A stretch of 64,000 bases of DNA. Origin: Paludibacter propionicigenes WB4 (GTDB lineage Bacteria; Bacteroidota; Bacteroidia; Bacteroidales; Paludibacteraceae). Shown here one piece after another: positions 1,633-34,754 of the stretch. The stretch lies in assembly GCF_000183135.1 (NCBI RefSeq), contig NC_014734.1:3348001-3412000 (forward strand). The letters run 5' to 3'. The notes beneath the pieces were generated by a model. That model saw nothing but the letters and a program-made list of their open reading frames with translations. It had not been told where the DNA came from and did no database searches. A program made the position numbers and the translations under genes. Each line of letters opens with the position of its first letter. The stretch's first letter is position 1.

Positions 1633-2514
1633 ATGTTGAATATAGAAATTGATAAAAAATCAGGGTTTTGTTTCGGAGTTGTAAAAGCTATAACAAAAGC
1701 TGAAGAAGAATTAGCAAAAGGTGAGACATTATATTGTTTGGGTGATATAGTTCATAACGGACAAGAAGTAGAACGACTCACCAAGATGGGGCTGATAACG
1801 ATAGATCATGAGCAGTTTGCCTTACTGCATGATGCTAAAGTGTTGCTCAGAGCGCACGGTGAACCACCCAAAACTTATGATATAGCAAAGGAAAACAATC
1901 TGACGCTAATTGACGCATCGTGTCCTGTGGTTTTGAAACTTCAAAATCGTATTAAGAAAGCTTATCAGAATGCTCCGTCGCCCGATACTCAAATAGTGAT
2001 ATACGGCGAAAAAGGCCATGCCGAAGTGAATGGCCTTGTTGGTCAGACAGATGAAAAGGCCATTGTGATTGAGAGTGAAGCAGATTTGGATAAATTAGAC
2101 TTTAATAAAAAAATTCAGCTTTTTTCACAAACCACTAAGTCTCTCGAAGGTTTTAATGAATTAGTAATAACTTTATCAAAAAAAGTTCAAAATAATGACA
2201 ATTTTGAATTTTTCGATACAATTTGCCGACAAGTTGCAAACAGAATTCCAAATATTACTACCTTTGCAAGTCAAAATGATATAGTCATTTTCGTAAGCGG
2301 AAAAAAGAGCTCAAACGGAAAGGTTTTGTATCAGCACAGTAAGAAAATTAATCCTAATACTTACCTTGTTACCGAAGCAAATGAAGTAACCGGGCTGGAT
2401 CTTGATCTGACAAAACAGATTGGAATATGTGGAGCTACGTCAACACCCCGTTGGTTGATGGAGGAAGTAGCCGATAAATTAAAGGAAATGTCGTTGAGTT
2501 TGGAACGAATATAG
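1633..2514 (+). CDS. ispH: 4-hydroxy-3-methylbut-2-enyl diphosphate reductase
   Basis: Last enzyme of the MEP isoprenoid pathway. It reduces HMBPP to IPP and DMAPP using a [4Fe-4S] cluster. The three cluster cysteines are present: C13 in GFCFGV, C97 in DASCPVV and C198 in DTICRQ. Substrate-binding histidines occur in VHNGQEV (H41), RAHG (H75) and KGHAEVNG (H129), with the active-site glutamate E131 in the last motif. At 293 residues it is slightly shorter than the E. coli enzyme but complete. Dxr, the first committed enzyme of the same pathway, is at 48131. ispH is followed after 36 bases by pfkA on the same strand. Confidence 0.97.
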   Translation: MLNIEIDKKSGFCFGVVKAITKAEEELAKGETLYCLGDIVHNGQEVERLTKMGLITIDHEQFALLHDAKVLLRAHGEPPKTYDIAKENNLTLIDASCPVVLKLQNRIKKAYQNAPSPDTQIVIYGEKGHAEVNGLVGQTDEKAIVIESEADLDKLDFNKKIQLFSQTTKSLEGFNELVITLSKKVQNNDNFEFFDTICRQVANRIPNITTFASQNDIVIFVSGKKSSNGKVLYQHSKKINPNTYLVTEANEVTGLDLDLTKQIGICGATSTPRWLMEEVADKLKEMSLSLERI

Positions 2515-2550
2515 AACCAATTTTATAAATATATTTTTTAAGGCAAAAAG

Positions 2551-3534
2551 ATGAAATACGAAATTAAATGTATTGGAGTATTGACATCGGGTGGAGATTC
2601 TCCCGGAATGAATGCTGCAATTCGCTCGGTAACGAGAGCTGCTATATTTAATGGCATCCGTGTAAAAGCTATTTACAGAGGTTATAAGGGGTTGATAACT
2701 AATGAAATTACAGAGTTTCAAACGCAAAATGTAAGTAATATTATTCAACAGGGAGGTACGATTTTAAAGAGTGCCCGTTGTGCGGAATTTCGCACTCCTG
2801 AGGGTAGAAAAACTGCCTATGAAAATATGAAAGCAGCTGAAATTGATGCTCTGGTAGTGATTGGTGGTGATGGAACTTTTACCGGTGCCCGTATTTTTGC
2901 CCAGGAATATAATGTTCCTATTGTGGGACTTCCCGGAACAATTGATAATGATTTGTACGGCACCGACTCAACGATTGGTTACGATACAGCATTAAATACT
3001 ATTATTGAAGCTGTGGACAAAATCCGTGATACGGCTACTTCGCACGAACGCTTGTTTTTCATTGAGGTAATGGGGCGTGATGCTGGTTTTCTGGCGCTAA
3101 ACAGTGCGCTGGCTTCGGGAGCTGAAGCAGCAATCATTCCAGAACGCGAAACGCAGGAAGATCAATTGGAGGAACTGATTAAGAACGGATTCCGTAAATC
3201 AAAAAATAGTAGTATTGTAATTGTAGCCGAAAGTGAAATCACCGGAGGTGCAAATGCACTGGCGGAACTGATGCACAAAGAGCATCCGGAGTACGACGTA
3301 CGTGTTACTATTTTGGGACACATTCAACGTGGTGGTTCACCAACTGCACATGACCGTATTATTGCCAGTAGAATGGGTGTGGCTGCTATCGATGCCCTGC
3401 TTGACGAGCAACGGAGTATCATGATCGGAATTGTGAACGATGAGATTGTTCACGTACCTTTTACCAAAGCCATTAAAGACGATAAACCGGTTGATGAAAC
3501 GCTGTTGGGCGTGCTTTCTATCTTATCGATATAA
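2551..3534 (+). CDS. pfkA: ATP-dependent 6-phosphofructokinase
   Basis: Phosphorylates fructose 6-phosphate to fructose 1,6-bisphosphate in glycolysis. The 327-residue protein has the [10 protein letters not shown] motif at residues 14-23, GGDGT at 105-109 and PGTIDND at about 128-134. A glycine rather than lysine in PGTIDND, together with GGDG, indicates use of ATP and not pyrophosphate, following the established PfkA/PPi-PFK residue rule. Further conserved parts are [19 protein letters not shown] and the C-terminal [12 protein letters not shown]. It is preceded closely by ispH and followed by a strong stem-loop with a T-run at 3552-3625. Confidence 0.97.
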
Positions 3535-3551
3535 TTTATTATTCCATTTTT

Positions 3552-3625
3552 GCGAGTTACAGGTTGTATATCTGGGAATGTTTTAGAAATCCCCAAATAT
3601 GATTCTTGTAACTCGTGATTTTTTT
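3552..3625 (+). terminator. Intrinsic terminator after pfkA
   Basis: Inverted repeat CGAGTTACA (3553-3561) and TGTAACTCG (3607-3615) encloses a second small GGG/CCC hairpin and is followed by GATTTTTTT. It lies between pfkA and the tyrosine phosphatase gene. The long loop makes the exact fold less certain than the arms. Confidence 0.65.
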
Positions 3626-3642
3626 ATACCTGTGATTTCCTT

Positions 3643-4119
3643 ATGACTCCAGTTTCAATTCTTTTTGTTTGCTTGGGCAATATCTGTCGCTCGCCAATGG
3701 CTGAAGCTATATTCCTGAAAATACTCGAACGAGAACATGCTTCCGACAGATTTTCTGTAGATTCTGCCGGGCTGCTAGGATATCATCAGGGCGAATTGCC
3801 CGATAGTCGTATGCGCTATCATGCAGGGAAACGTGGTTATTCGCTTACTCAACGGTCCCGTCCGTTTTCGCGGGCTGATTTTGATCGGTTTGATATGATT
3901 GTAGGCATGGATGATCAGAATATTGCCGGATTGAAAAAGCAGGCCATGACCTTAGACGAAGATGCAAAGATTTTTCGCATGACGGATTTTTGTCAATCTT
4001 TGGAGGCTACGCACGTTCCTGACCCGTATTACGGGGGTGATCAGGGATTTGAAAATGTTATTAATCTTCTGGAGGATGCCTGCGAGGGTTTGTTTAAAGA
4101 AGTAGCGGGAAAGAAATAA
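3643..4119 (+). CDS. Low molecular weight protein tyrosine phosphatase
   Basis: Cytosolic phosphatase of the low-Mr (Wzb/YwlE/arsenate reductase-like) family. The CX5R signature is complete: nucleophile C10 and R16 in CLGNICRSP, with the usual second cysteine C15. The general acid is D127 in VPDPYYGG. The length of 158 residues matches the family. Substrate may be phosphotyrosine or phosphoarginine and cannot be deduced. There is no tyrosine kinase or capsule gene alongside it, so a role in exopolysaccharide control is not supported by context. The ATG at 3643 comes 18 bases after the T-run of the upstream terminator, so it either has its own promoter nearby or depends on read-through. Confidence 0.93.
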   Translation: MTPVSILFVCLGNICRSPMAEAIFLKILEREHASDRFSVDSAGLLGYHQGELPDSRMRYHAGKRGYSLTQRSRPFSRADFDRFDMIVGMDDQNIAGLKKQAMTLDEDAKIFRMTDFCQSLEATHVPDPYYGGDQGFENVINLLEDACEGLFKEVAGKK

Positions 4120-16503: not shown

Positions 16504-16534
16504 TTTGTGGGTTAAAATTAAGTTTGTATATTTG
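16504..16534 (+). promoter_or_regulatory. Strong Bacteroidota promoter ahead of the array region
   Basis: TTTG (16504-16507), a 19-base spacer and TATATTTG (16527-16534) match the Bacteroidota -33/-7 consensus exactly. No good ORF starts just after it; the next structure is the terminator at 16651-16685. Confidence 0.75.
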
Positions 16535-16540
16535 CGGCAC

Positions 16541-16685
16541 TGTGTTGAGGATGAAGTGTATGTAACTTGTTTTAAAAGCAAATTTACTTGGTGTGTAAAG
16601 TCGAAACGTTTTTTCTTGTTCACTATTTCCCGTTTTTTTTATTGTGTTTTCGTAGTTCGCATGCGTGCGAACTACGAATTTTTTC
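16541..16685 (+). ncRNA. Candidate ~145-nt small RNA or terminated leader
   Basis: This segment is bounded by a consensus promoter and an intrinsic terminator and has no convincing ORF. The one 66-codon frame crossing it begins inside the promoter and reads through the terminator. It may be an independent small RNA or the prematurely terminated leader of the DUF6261-like gene at 17095, with the 42-bp array in between. The RNA family is not recognised. The start is an estimate, about 7 bases after the -7 box. Confidence 0.45.
16651..16685 (+). terminator. Intrinsic terminator before the 42-bp array
   Basis: A perfect 11-bp stem CGTAGTTCGCA / TGCGAACTACG with a TGCG loop is followed by AATTTTTTC. 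It lies 56 bases before the first array unit. Confidence 0.8.
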
Positions 16686-16740: not shown

Positions 16741-16966
16741 CTGTAGGGCTACATTGGCACCATTGTTAATGAAATCATATCACTGTAGGGCTACATTGAT
16801 GCCATCGTTAATGAAATTATGCCGCTGTAGGGCTACATTGAGGCCATTGTTAACGGAATCATATCACTGTAGGCCTACAGTGGGGCTATTGTTAATGAGA
16901 TCATGTCGCTGTAGGGCAACATTGATGCCATTGTTAATAGAATTATGTCATTGTAGGGATACATTG
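16741..16966. repeat. Palindromic tandem array 1, 42-bp period
   Basis: Units start at 16741, 16783, 16825, 16867 and 16909, with a partial sixth at 16951 and a degenerate one before the first (16702-16740). Every unit begins with the near-palindrome TGTAGGGCTACA (perfect TGTAGGCCTACA in unit 4). It continues with the small dyads CATTgttAATG and ATGAaaTCAT. Units differ by several substitutions but not in length. One frame stays open through the array and encodes a 14-residue repeat (CRATLMPLLMK-like), which is an automatic result of a period divisible by three. Confidence 0.9.
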
Positions 16967-18206: not shown

Positions 18207-18530
18207 AAATTTATTATTTTAAATTATATACAACACTGTTGTTGTACACAACGTGAATTTCAATATTCATACCAGCTAAAATATTATGTCATATTGTCTT
18301 AAATTAATGTTTTTTATGGCGTTTCTGTGCGGTTTTAATACGGAAACGGTTGGTTGCTGTAAAAACTGACATTTTGTCTAATTATTTCTTATAGGATTAA
18401 TACATAACCATTCTCTTTGTGAGTATAAAAAATGCGCTTCCCGAATCCCGGAAAGCGCATTTATATTATTACTGATCACTGATTACTGATCACTGATCAC
18501 TGATCACTGATCACTGGTTACTGATCACTG
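18207..18530. other. Intergenic region with terminator and heptamer repeats
   Basis: No gene seen. It contains the nfnB terminator and the TGATCAC repeat listed separately. A GTTGT-rich stretch (18233-18252, ACACTGTTGTTGTACACAAC) with short dyads lies before the DUF2188 gene. Confidence 0.6.
18430..18462 (-). terminator. Terminator downstream of nfnB
   Basis: AAATGCGCTTcCCG and CGGaAAGCGCATTT form a stem with T-rich flanks. It terminates the minus-strand nfnAB unit after the heptamer repeat. Confidence 0.7.
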
Positions 18531-30999: not shown

Positions 31000-32901
31000 T
31001 TATTTTACCAGGCTCAATTTCATCAATTCATTTTCTTTCAGTTGTCCGTTGTCTTTCAGGAAACGGATTACTTGTAGCACTTTCAACTCTTTGAACGGGA
31101 CTTTCTTTAGCAACACATTGACACTTAATTCTTCTGCGGATAATGCCTGTTCGATATGCTGTCGGATAGTTTCAAAATCTTCTTCGGTAATCAGCGTTTC
31201 TTTTTTCTTTTGACAGATGTCGCATTTACCGCAGGGTTTTGTTTCTTTTTCGCCAAAATAGGAGAGGAGCACCTGACTGCGACAAATATTTTCTTCTTTG
31301 GCATAGTCCAACACACTTTTTACCCGCGCGATGTATCGTTCACGTCGGTCATCATAGGCTTCTTTGCCCAGAATCACACGTTCGGTGGCTTCGCGTTCTC
31401 TTACGAAGGTAAGGTAAGGCGTTTTTTTGCGGGGGATGAATTGGATGACACGTTCTTTGGCCAATCCCACCAGTTCCTCATACACTTTTTCGCGTGTCCA
31501 TTCCAGTCGTTTGGCAATGGTTTCTTCGTTGATGGAGGCCATATCGGTAAACAAGCCGGTGTAGGAGCGCAACAGAATATGTATCAGTTTTTCTTGCTCG
31601 GGAGTTTGTTTCTGGTTGTATAAATCGTCTTTTCCCACGATAAAAAGAACCCTCGCCGAACTGTCTTGTTCGTCGGTGAGTTCCAGATAGCCTGCCTGTT
31701 GAAGAATTTTCAGGCAATTATAGGTAATCAGTATCGGCAGTTTAAATTTCGTACAGAAATCGCCTATGTCGAATGCGAAAACTCTGTCCAACCCCGAACC
31801 TACGCCCATTTCAAGGTAATTGCCCAAGGCTTCATATACTTTAAGCACCATCTCTTTGCCGGGGAAGCTGTCCGATACACGTTTGCGCATTTTTACGGCA
31901 TCGCCATTGTTGTAGAGCAACACGGCATAGGCTTTTTTCTCGTCGCGTCCGGCACGTCCGGCTTCCTGAAAGTATGCTTCGAGCGAATCGGGTAAATCCA
32001 TATGCACCACGGTACGCACTTCGGCCTTGTCTATTCCCATACCGAAAGCGTTGGTAGAAACGATAACCCGCGTTTCGCCGGATTTCCAACGGGATTGTTT
32101 GGCGTCTTTCGTTTCGTTTTTCAGTCCGGCATGAAAGTTCTCTGCTGAAATTCCATTCAGGTTCAGAAAATCGGAAATTTCTTTGGTCCTTTTTCTGTTG
32201 CGTACATAGACTACCGAAGTGCCGGGCACGCTGTTGAGTATCTTTAGCAGATGTTCATCTTTGTTTTCGGTAGTGCGCACCACATAAGCCAGATTAGACC
32301 GATGGAAGCTTTTTTGGAACACATTGGGTTCGCGAAAATGCAACTGACGCTGAATGTCGTCCACCACTTCAGGGGTGGCAGTGGCGGTTAGCGCCAGCAC
32401 CGGGACATCGGGCAGCAGTTCCCTAATGTCGGCAATGCGGAGGTAGGAGGGACGAAAATCATATCCCCACTGCGAGATACAATGAGATTCATCTACGGCT
32501 ATCATGCATACGGTGGCTTGCTTTATTTTTTCCATGAAAATTGGAGTAGCCAACCGTTCGGGCGAAACATACAGGAACTTATAAGCCTCAAATACGGCAT
32601 TGTCGAGTGTCATCAATATGTCGTTGTGCGACATGCCGGAATATATGGCGGCGGCCGTGATTCCACGTTTCTTCAGATTTTCCACCTGATCTTTCATAAG
32701 GGCAATAAGCGGAGTTACTACCACGCAGATACCTTTCATGGCCAGCGTGGGCACCTGAAAAGTCAATGACTTACCACCACCGGTGGGCATAAGTCCAAGC
32801 GTATCTTTACCGGACACAATGCTGCGGATAATATCGCCCTGCAAAGGTCTGAAGTCATCGTAGCCCCAGTATTGTTTCAGTATGTCCAGGTATTGTTGCA
32901 T
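31000..32901 (-). CDS. recQ: ATP-dependent DNA helicase RecQ
   Basis: 633 residues. Superfamily 2 helicase motifs: motif 0 FRPLQ, Walker A GLMPTGGGKS (36-45), DESH box AVDESHCISQW, TATATPEV, and motif VI QEAGRAGRDEK. The RecQ zinc-binding domain has the C-x16-C-x2-C-x2-C pattern in CRSQVLLSYFGEKETKPCGKCDIC. A winged-helix part follows. A canonical HRDC domain is not obvious in the C-terminal 60 residues (LSAEELSVNVLLKKVPFKELKVLQVIRFL). Roles are recombination and fork repair. Upstream is a -7 box framed by an inverted repeat. Confidence 0.95.
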   Translation of the reverse strand: MQQYLDILKQYWGYDDFRPLQGDIIRSIVSGKDTLGLMPTGGGKSLTFQVPTLAMKGICVVVTPLIALMKDQVENLKKRGITAAAIYSGMSHNDILMTLDNAVFEAYKFLYVSPERLATPIFMEKIKQATVCMIAVDESHCISQWGYDFRPSYLRIADIRELLPDVPVLALTATATPEVVDDIQRQLHFREPNVFQKSFHRSNLAYVVRTTENKDEHLLKILNSVPGTSVVYVRNRKRTKEISDFLNLNGISAENFHAGLKNETKDAKQSRWKSGETRVIVSTNAFGMGIDKAEVRTVVHMDLPDSLEAYFQEAGRAGRDEKKAYAVLLYNNGDAVKMRKRVSDSFPGKEMVLKVYEALGNYLEMGVGSGLDRVFAFDIGDFCTKFKLPILITYNCLKILQQAGYLELTDEQDSSARVLFIVGKDDLYNQKQTPEQEKLIHILLRSYTGLFTDMASINEETIAKRLEWTREKVYEELVGLAKERVIQFIPRKKTPYLTFVREREATERVILGKEAYDDRRERYIARVKSVLDYAKEENICRSQVLLSYFGEKETKPCGKCDICQKKKETLITEEDFETIRQHIEQALSAEELSVNVLLKKVPFKELKVLQVIRFLKDNGQLKENELMKLSLVK

Positions 32902-33009: not shown

Positions 33010-33108
33010 TACAAGATTCAACTCATACTCTCACCAAACTTCCGAAGGAAAGAAAATAGGTTTGATTACCCATTTTTCTTTCTGATTATTGCTGTTAATA
33101 GTTTATAC

Positions 33109-33310
33109 GCAATTTCGCTGTGCTGCGAAATTGCCAATGATTGTTTGTTCGCAATATTTCTCAACGATAATATTGCGGTTAATAGCTGGTTCGCAATTTC
33201 TCCTTTGAGCGAAATTGCCAATAATGTATGAACCGCAATTTCTTCGCGTGGAGAAATTGCCGATAACATACGAGAGGCACTTTCACCCTTAGCGGAAGTG
33301 CCTCTCGTAT
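33109..33310. repeat. Palindromic tandem array 2, 42-bp period
   Basis: Units start at 33109, 33151, 33193, 33235 and about 33277. Each has an 8-bp arm, about 10 bases and the complementary arm: GCAATTTC/GAAATTGC in units 1, 3 and 4, and GCAATATT/AATATTGC in unit 2, a compensated change. The fifth has GGCACTT/AAGTGCC, extended to 15 bp (33268-33282 with 33296-33310). A spacer of about 16 bases containing CAATA or TTAATA follows. A fragment (GCAATATT) continues at 33318. Because arms pair, both strands encode similar 14-residue repeats, which I regard as non-coding. Confidence 0.88.
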
Positions 33311-33341
33311 ATGCAACGCAATATTGTGTGTGAGCAATGGC

Positions 33342-34595
33342 TTATTTAGCTGTTTTTTCTTCTTCTATCCGTGTTCCGATTAATATCACACCGTTTTCAG
33401 CATCCTTGCCATATTCTTTTTTTAGTTGTTTGATAACTTCTTTTGTAGTTGGTTCTAAGGTTTTATACATGGTAAGGTTGGTATAACTTAGCCACGAAAG
33501 ATCAAAACTCGATGGAAGTCTGATTCCATCCTGCAGAATGATAGTTTTGTCATTCTTAACCCATTCTTTTTTCTGCTTTGGCTCATCGAGTTTGAATGCC
33601 ACGGGCACAAGAACGTAAGTGTCCGTCTTTTCTCCACAGAGCGTTCCCGGAGTCCAATCGGGCAATGTGCTGACTACGCGGAGAGCTTCCTTTTCAAGGA
33701 AATAGTCGGAGCGCCTTGCCAAAATCGGGTTGGTTACTTTGCCGGTTTTATCTACCGTAATCCGCACAAAGACTTTTCCCTGAGTTTTTAATTGTTTGGC
33801 AGCAAAAGGGTATTGAATGCTGTCGGCAATGTAGCTCAGCAGTTTGGTTTCGCCTCCCGGAAACAGAGGGAAAGTGATTGTTTCTTTACAGTTGGGATTT
33901 TTTCTCAGGCTTGCTGTATCTGCTATCGCAAATTCTATTTCTGACTTTTTGGTGGTGATCAACACCACACCTTCAGCCGCATCTTTTCCGTATTTCGATA
34001 TAAGTTTTGACTTTTCTTCTTCCGGAACCGGACTGAGGAGCTTTACTGATGCCAGTTTTTCGGGGTTCAGTATAACAGGATTAAAGCCGATAGGCATTTT
34101 GACATCGTCAATCAAGAATAAGGATTTCTCAGTAGGCTGCCAACCGACAGGTTCATTCGCCGGTGCCTGAAAGTTGATGGGAATAATGCGTTGAACAGCT
34201 ACTTTTTGTCCGTTTTGTTCTCCCGGAGTCCATTCGGGTAATGATGAAATAACCCGCAGCGCTTCATTGTCCAGGTCGGTCGATACGCCTTTTATCACTT
34301 TCGGATTTTCTACCTTACCTGTTTTGCTTACCACAAATTGAATGTGTACTTTGCCATGTTCATTTTTTTTGAGCGCTTCGGTCGGATAAACGATATGCTG
34401 ATTCAGAAAAGTGACAAGTCCTTTTTCTCCACCGGGAAATTCGGGCATTTTTTCGGCAAAGGTGTAGACAGAATCTTTTGCAGGTTGCAGGTTCTGAGCT
34501 GTATATGCTTTAGTGTAGCTGGCAAAAGCTACAGTAAAGAATAGAATGAAGCTAACTTTAATAAATGCAGAGTGAGTTTTTTGTGATTGAAACAT
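33342..34595 (-). CDS. Double TonB C-terminal-domain protein with receptor-plug-like segments
   Basis: About 417 residues from the ATG at 34595; an in-frame ATG at 34646 is possible but places 17 polar residues before the signal-anchor (FIKVSFILFFTVAFASYTKA). Two TonB_C domains are present, each recognised by MPEFPGGE or FPGGETKLLSYI, then GKVHIQFVVSKTGKV, ALRVISSLPEWTPGEQNGQKVAVQRIIPI. Each is followed by a segment resembling a TonB-receptor plug: LFLIDDVKMP..ISKYGKDAAEGVVLITTKK and IILQDGIRLP..EYGKDAENGVILIGT. It lacks the M56 peptidase part of its neighbours. Probably a periplasmic energy-transducer-like protein. A -7 box (TACATTTG, minus) is at 34663-34670. Confidence 0.85.
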   Translation of the reverse strand: MFQSQKTHSAFIKVSFILFFTVAFASYTKAYTAQNLQPAKDSVYTFAEKMPEFPGGEKGLVTFLNQHIVYPTEALKKNEHGKVHIQFVVSKTGKVENPKVIKGVSTDLDNEALRVISSLPEWTPGEQNGQKVAVQRIIPINFQAPANEPVGWQPTEKSLFLIDDVKMPIGFNPVILNPEKLASVKLLSPVPEEEKSKLISKYGKDAAEGVVLITTKKSEIEFAIADTASLRKNPNCKETITFPLFPGGETKLLSYIADSIQYPFAAKQLKTQGKVFVRITVDKTGKVTNPILARRSDYFLEKEALRVVSTLPDWTPGTLCGEKTDTYVLVPVAFKLDEPKQKKEWVKNDKTIILQDGIRLPSSFDLSWLSYTNLTMYKTLEPTTKEVIKQLKKEYGKDAENGVILIGTRIEEEKTAK

Positions 34596-34754
34596 ACTGA
34601 TTTTTTTATGTATTTGAGTCTGTGTGTTTGTGGCACGGAAGGTCATATTCCAAAACCGGAGGCAAATGTATAAATAATTTTTAGTTTAACCATAATAAGA
34701 TAAGCAGGATTGAAGTGGATTCAGTCCTGCTTATCATAAATTCAGTTCTTATAA

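Follow-up and report, generated by a model that had tools for sequence, protein, structure and literature searches.

Genes of the DUF6261 family in Bacteroidota are paired, across the phylum, with a tandem DNA array whose geometry is conserved and whose sequence is nearly free. An array was observed within 1.3 kb upstream of 82 of the 103 DUF6261 genes used here and downstream only, close by, of six others; 15 genes had none. The pairing had been proposed from a single locus in an initial annotation, together with a search for arrays upstream of homologues in other Bacteroidota; that search found arrays at most copies, so that the pairing holds as a general rule and homologues elsewhere do not, for the most part, lack the array. 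The pairing is strong, not exclusive, and suggests that Bacteroidota carry a gene-plus-DNA-array module so far unrecognised.

The window, the whole stretch of 64,000 bp from the genome of Paludibacter propionicigenes WB4, contains the array from which the analysis started. Tandem Repeats Finder placed it at 16741-16966 with a period of 42, 5.4 copies, 78% matches, 0% indels and a score of 277, reproducing the bounds, period and lack of indels claimed earlier, and the register of the units is ungapped (spacing 42, 42, 42, 42; Table 1). The best 126-bp self-match in the 1043-bp intergenic region was 101/126 at lag 42, against a maximum of 62/126 in 300 two-base-block shuffles, and chance is a poor explanation for the array. 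Three of the six units carry the main dyad, TGTAGggCTACA, in exact form, and the other three have variants of it (TGTAGGCCTACA, TGTAGGGCAACA and TGTAGGGATACA). Two smaller dyads, CATTgttAATG and ATGAaaTCAT, are not intact throughout: some units keep them, and in the rest they are degraded.

Table 1. Features in the window around the array upstream of the DUF6261 gene and around a second array
Feature	Position in window	Strand	Details
Promoter-like sequence, Bacteroidota type	16504..16534	+	TTTG-N19-TATATTTG; read from sequence
Terminator-like hairpin	16649..16678	+	perfect inverted repeat of 13 pairs with a loop of 4 and a T tail; separates promoter from array
Array unit 1	16741..16782	+	dyad TGTAGGGCTACA at 16742-16753
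Array unit 2	16783..16824	+	dyad at 16784-16795
Array unit 3	16825..16866	+	dyad at 16826-16837
Array unit 4	16867..16908	+	dyad TGTAGGCCTACA at 16868-16879, fully symmetric
Array unit 5	16909..16950	+	dyad TGTAGGGCAACA at 16910-16921
Array unit 6, partial	16951..16966	+	dyad TGTAGGGATACA at 16952-16963
DUF6261 gene, 244 aa	17095..17829	+	PF19775, E 1.9e-28; predicted all-alpha (AlphaFold2)
recQ-like gene, flanking second array	31000-32901	-	assigned by reading protein
Second 42-bp-period dyad array	33071..33312	-	core GCAATTTC..GAAATTGC; no adjoining DUF6261 gene
TonB_C gene, flanking second array	33342-34646	-	

The gene that follows the array had been called DUF6261-like, and the Pfam profile (PF19775) confirmed this with 99.8 bits against a curated cut-off of 27. 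The promoter-like reading upstream rests on TTTG/TAnnTTTG, which we take to be the consensus in this phylum; the TATATTTG octamer lies at 16527-16534, and seven such octamers occur in the surrounding locus (L009), where 4.9 would be expected by chance. The hairpin between promoter and array has T-runs on either side. Such a hairpin is uncommon: just four of 65 arrays had a terminator-like one in the 250 bp that precede them.

DUF6261 genes were drawn from relatives (18 of 40 genomes matching), from a phylum-wide sample (12 of 395 genomes matching, 11 of them over the cut-off) and from named GTDB contigs (25 loci). The collection held 115 distinct genes; the 103 with at least 400 bp of upstream sequence were used and 12 were left out. 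We called an array where a lag of 40-44 gave at least 58% identity over 63 bp between -1300 and +200, with low complexity removed. By source, an upstream array was present at 40 of 52 genes from relatives, 14 of 19 from the phylum sample, 16 of 20 on named contigs, the single gene on a phage-collection contig, and every one of the 11 DUF6261 matches in the genome of the window itself (11/11, each with a 41- or 42-bp array). Under the same rule, the bands 25-29, 30-34, 35-39, 45-49, 50-54 and 55-59 each returned 0-2 of the 103 genes. As a background, 17 of 520 tiles of 1.5 kb from the own genome passed the rule; in four genomes that lack DUF6261, two of which belong to other families, 6 of 631 tiles passed in the 40-44 band, not above other bands. 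In a free-lag control, 15 of 143 other ORFs exceeded the threshold, which is an overestimate: the set included the window DUF6261 gene and one masked run of N, and several of the 15 were the same arrays viewed from a neighbouring gene. The lag-band comparison (82 of 103 against 0-2) is thus the cleaner test of the pairing.

The genes at which the rule found no array were L038, L044, L061, L063, L071, L076, L088, L089, L090, L091, L098, L115, L116, L126 and L138. At L126, a transposase gene (DUF772/DDE, 2186-3970) separates an array from the DUF6261 gene, and this is a natural separation of the pair. One DUF6261-positive genome (G023) had no period-41/42 array within the 67 kb sampled.

What is held constant among these arrays is the spacing of their units. 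When lags of 20-60 were scanned freely in the 103 upstream stretches, 69 passed, with a best lag of 41 in 32, 42 in 33, 43 in one and another value in three; 42 of 2060 shuffled stretches passed the same scan. Unit steps were then counted in arrays preselected at a period of 40-43, on which the counts (free range 34-51) are conditional. Fourteen of these 79 arrays had fewer than three units and were left out of the step, similarity, promoter-octamer, stem-departure, folding and half-site analyses, leaving 65. Their 179 steps measured 41 bp (81), 42 bp (90), 43 bp (3) or something else (5), so that 171 of 179 were 41 or 42; steps were mixed in nine of the 65 arrays. Because 41 and 42 bp are about equally common, no reading frame is kept, and we rejected a coding repeat on this ground. 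Forty-two base pairs equal four turns of B-DNA. Bands containing three and five helical turns were represented at only one and two of the 103 genes, which suggests that length itself is held, beyond helical phase. These data bear out the earlier suggestion of a selected, four-turn spacing: 41-42 bp is kept while the sequence varies, and the window array has no indels.

The letters of the units, by comparison, are held only in part. Below ~60% DUF6261 identity, the consensus units of two arrays are barely more similar than chance (mean score 7.4-8.1 versus 7.0). Such fast turnover, together with copy numbers that run from 2 to 9 across arrays, is what would be expected if the arrays were functionless, neutral minisatellites produced by duplications in steps of 42 bp. 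Several observations speak against this reading. A dyad with a stem of at least 6 was present in 42 of the 79 DUF6261 arrays (shuffled mean 6.2), but tandem arrays of other periods showed little excess of such long dyads (17 of 73, shuffled mean 11.9). Stems of 5 were not special, being found in 38 of the 73 control arrays (shuffled mean 27.8), and the excess of the DUF6261 arrays lies in stems 6 and 7. The dyad has a 4-nt centre in 29 of 66 cases. In arrays with a dyad and at least four units, conservation among units was 0.853 in the arms, 0.755 in the centre and 0.777 in the rest, and none of 500 random shifts reached the value of the arms. The position of the arrays goes with a single gene family, and unrelated arrays have a half-site in common, as described below. 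We consider a neutral origin very improbable.

Aligned on their dyad centres, the arrays revealed a degenerate half-site, approximately cTT(T/G)Cg with an A nearer the centre. Across 47 mutually unrelated arrays (36 with a dyad, 72 halves) its information content was 2.4 bits, where shuffles reached at most 0.9 (0/200). On cross-validation at p<=0.05 it was recovered in 18 of the 47 DUF6261 arrays, 29 falling short, and in 2 of the 73 control arrays. Half-site similarity also climbed with DUF6261 identity, pairs below 50% included (rho 0.13, reached by 2 of 500 permutations; 49 of the 65 arrays, those with a dyad). None of 60 controls centred off the dyad reached this correlation, and a composition control gave up to 0.09. 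The co-variation of half-site and protein is weak, and shared ancestry may contribute to it.

We then considered whether the array acts as DNA or as RNA. In the 65 arrays, sense TAnnTTTG occurred 60-150 bp before the array at 2.7-4.4 per kb, compared with 0.5-2.7 per kb for antisense. This excess, which rests on a short octamer, makes it probable that the leader transcript of DUF6261 contains the array. A second stretch rich in the octamer lies 90-150 bp past the array (4.7-5.4 per kb, ~5 hits in 1.0 kb), and transcription of some loci may begin there instead. A position between promoter and gene would suit an array that acts as RNA, that is, a row of leader hairpins bound or processed by DUF6261, or holding it, in the manner of a type III antitoxin or an autogenous translational operator. 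The 4-nt centres of the consensus dyads have a size typical for hairpin loops, and the RNA of the arrays is folded far more stably than shuffled sequence (mean z -3.7, 65 arrays). The layout of array before gene also resembles that of type III systems (PMC5086642). However, departures from perfect stems were G-T in 68 cases and A-C in 70 (77 and 80 with two-unit arrays added), favouring neither strand, and the antisense strand folds at least as well as the sense: after correction against shuffles the sense fold was better in 30 of 65 arrays, and raw energies favoured antisense (p 0.03). Compensation between the arms within a unit was not found (22 versus 20.8 in a re-pairing shuffle), none of the 65 arrays had a terminator-like site (perfect stems of at least 7) between array and gene, and a spacing of 41-42 nt would be needless for RNA. 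A search of Rfam with the 11 own-genome DUF6261 loci returned no match over the gathering score at any array; a match to DUF805b RNA (RF02914) was seen away from the array, on the minus strand of L010:2966-3001. Since G-T and A-C departures are about equal, antisense folds at least as well and the arms do not compensate, we prefer duplex DNA sites over RNA structures, and regard an RNA function of the array as unlikely.

Arrays of this period also occur away from DUF6261. A strict scan of 864 kb of the own genome found six arrays of period 41 and ten of period 42, compared with 0-5 for each other period. Four of these 16 precede DUF6261 genes and 12 lie elsewhere, beside mixed neighbours; one of the latter is the second array of the window, between recQ-like and TonB_C genes (Table 1). 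Placement away from the gene family, which would count against the pairing, is therefore seen in part. One may then ask whether the arrays are a general feature of chromosomal architecture, phased sites for a nucleoid protein beside which DUF6261 genes tend to stay. In favour of such a role, arrays away from DUF6261 are dyadic too: in a set of 16 (14 of period 40-43 from the own-genome scan, plus L273 and L274), nine had a stem of at least 6, against a shuffled mean of 1.9. But pairing at 11 of 11 and 82 of 103 genes far exceeds the background of 17 in 520 own-genome tiles, and the DUF6261 half-site was found in only 1 of the 16 arrays at p<=0.05; as a motif common to arrays elsewhere it was looked for and not found. 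In addition, the four DUF6261-less genomes, a small sample with two members from other families, yielded a single period-41/42 array in 980 kb, where ~18 would be expected at own-genome density. We judge a purely architectural role improbable, if slightly less so than an RNA function.

Further sampling turned up arrays in other settings. In 400 kb of a genome with five DUF6261 genes (G347), one of five period-41/42 arrays lay at a DUF6261 gene, and at least two of the five look coding or low-grade by reading. A second protein family, of ~208 aa, combines a short helical domain (by reading) with an Fn3-like domain (below the Pfam cut-off); it has four copies and was seen in 4 of the 148 Bacteroidota genomes sampled for it. 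Three copies (L272, L273, L274) have 42-bp arrays ~110-640 bp upstream, and at the fourth (L139:14026-14817) an array stands directly after the stop codon. Another member of the order, with no DUF6261 match (genome G433), has arrays built around AAAAGCTATGCTTTT with steps of ~22/44 bp (L202:17459, L203:10326, L205:15464); this is another two-turn or four-turn palindromic array type.

The DUF6261 protein itself offers few leads. The AlphaFold2 model of the window protein is all-helical (pLDDT 88.2, pTM 0.56); Foldseek returned no fold match in the PDB at E<=0.001, and the protein sequence had no relative there below E 0.35. Pfam matched DUF6261 alone, with no DNA-binding, Rep or Par domain. One alignment took in 38 of the 90 proteins listed, the window protein among them, and showed only R75 and A101 as nearly invariant, and hence no catalytic set is visible; a second alignment joined the window protein to 23 of the 25 named-contig loci. 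The median pI of 6.0 is mildly acidic (n=110, proteins of <215 aa left out) and so lends direct DNA binding no support. In the open-licence literature searched, DUF6261 occurs in one paper, a Streptococcus daptomycin study.

The surroundings of the genes were varied. Several metagenome loci with a downstream array adjoin defence genes, including Cas9, type II restriction-modification, SspE/Orf5-like, MkoA/MkoC-like and NACHT genes; at L270:1472-7438, Cas9 and DUF6261 genes and a 42-bp array are immediate neighbours. Small ORFs stand directly 5' of DUF6261 at L268:986-1336 and L270:7590-8174; they have a common C-terminal LSIFFGLCC.S.GYIF and no Pfam match, and their beginning is one that we take to be DnaN-like. 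We rejected a viral or plasmid origin. The window protein had no match in a plasmid collection, and no DUF6261 was found in 41 candidate viral-contig stretches with a narrow query from four proteins. The sole match in a phage collection (L113) carries methyltransferase and Vsr-like genes, named by reading, and looks like a bacterial contig rather than a phage.

Building on what was observed, namely the array and its period, the gene pairing, the dyads with their conserved arms, the common half-site and its weak co-variation with the protein, we tentatively propose, at somewhat short of an even chance, that the array is a DNA operator of phased dyads, probably in the DUF6261 leader, bound cooperatively by dimers of one factor. 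About five dyad-symmetric sites, each of ~16 bp with a variable 4-bp centre, would recur every 41-42 bp, or four helical turns. Dimers of the factor would thus be aligned on one face of the DNA, and their cooperative binding could form a short nucleoprotein array. The outcome would be regulation, most likely autoregulation of DUF6261, although an array downstream of the promoter, if that is where it lies, would be an unusual site for an activator array. Arrays and genes would diverge together, with the geometry fixed and the letters free but for the degenerate half-site. That the factor is DUF6261 itself, instead of a co-inherited regulator, seems to us doubtful, though not far-fetched.

A broader and equally doubtful extension of this operator model is that the pairs of DUF6261 and array are orthogonal protein-DNA modules of one class, spread across the phylum, whose geometry is selected and whose letters follow the paired protein. 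A genome might then hold about a dozen private, non-cross-reacting copies, and arrays without DUF6261 could be remnants, remote targets or partners of the second family. If true, DUF6261, a family of unknown function, would gain a physical partner, and the arrays would be a new kind of leader element in Bacteroidota gene regulation. The co-evolution of binding specificity could also be studied in them, since they would supply many natural protein-DNA pairs that are orthogonal in sequence and conserved in geometry. Exact-word searching of the open-licence literature found no description of 41-42-bp dyad arrays.

Among known repeats, REP/BIME elements are palindromic intergenic repeats associated with RAYT (Y1) transposases, with one REP sequence dispersed per genome. 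DUF6261 arrays are likewise palindromic and intergenic, but have no sequence in common, and we rejected a dispersed repeat family because arrays are unrelated beyond close homologues. A RAYT link was rejected as well, since the own genome has only four Y1_Tnp matches in all, one of which (2341000-2341344) lies ~0.4 kb from a DUF6261 match; another Y1 (IS200-like) transposase gene near such a locus was seen at L267:9236-9679. Unlike CRISPR arrays, the units abut, with no unique spacers between them. The BrickBuilt minisatellite MITE of Porphyromonas gingivalis (PMC4596501) has a 23-nt unit, a leader and tail with small inverted ends, and 19 occurrences of one element in the ATCC 33277 genome. 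It resembles the present arrays as an intergenic tandem repeat of a related bacterium and contains promoter elements; DUF6261 arrays differ in their 41-42-bp units and in sequences that are unrelated among loci. TAACTGA heptamer arrays are reported (PMC4679880) mostly just upstream of start codons in one genome, and in five Bacteroidetes too; they are also short tandem repeats upstream of genes, but have 7-bp units of a single sequence. The window contains a heptamer array of its own, ACTGATC x 8.6 at 18471-18530, and heptamer repeats in Bacteroidetes are one of the subjects of that paper.

Type III toxin-antitoxin systems (ToxIN, CptIN, TenpIN) resemble the DUF6261 loci in that a single gene directly follows a tandem repeat array. 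In these systems, a Rho-independent terminator lies between array and gene (PMC5086642). DUF6261 arrays have no terminator there (0/65), and the hairpin of the window precedes the array. The protein shows no similarity to ToxN-fold endoribonucleases, as judged from Pfam, the all-alpha model and the lack of a PDB match at E<=0.001. Where a type III system has a structured antitoxin RNA, the present arrays give RNA that folds well, though no better on one strand than on the other and with no G-U bias. Overall, the closest parallel to the way the array would work is a binding array of the iteron or centromere type, yet it does not qualify as a member of any known family tried. Iteron-Rep and parC/parS-type arrays are tandem, helically spaced protein sites that stand beside the gene of their presumed binder and whose sequence is system-specific. 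Phased direct repeats adjoin a gene in the DUF6261 system as well; the window protein differs from a Rep protein in carrying no Rep or Par domain in Pfam and in having no plasmid-collection match, and the DUF6261 arrays are set apart from both systems in being chromosomal, many per genome and made of dyadic units of 41-42 bp.
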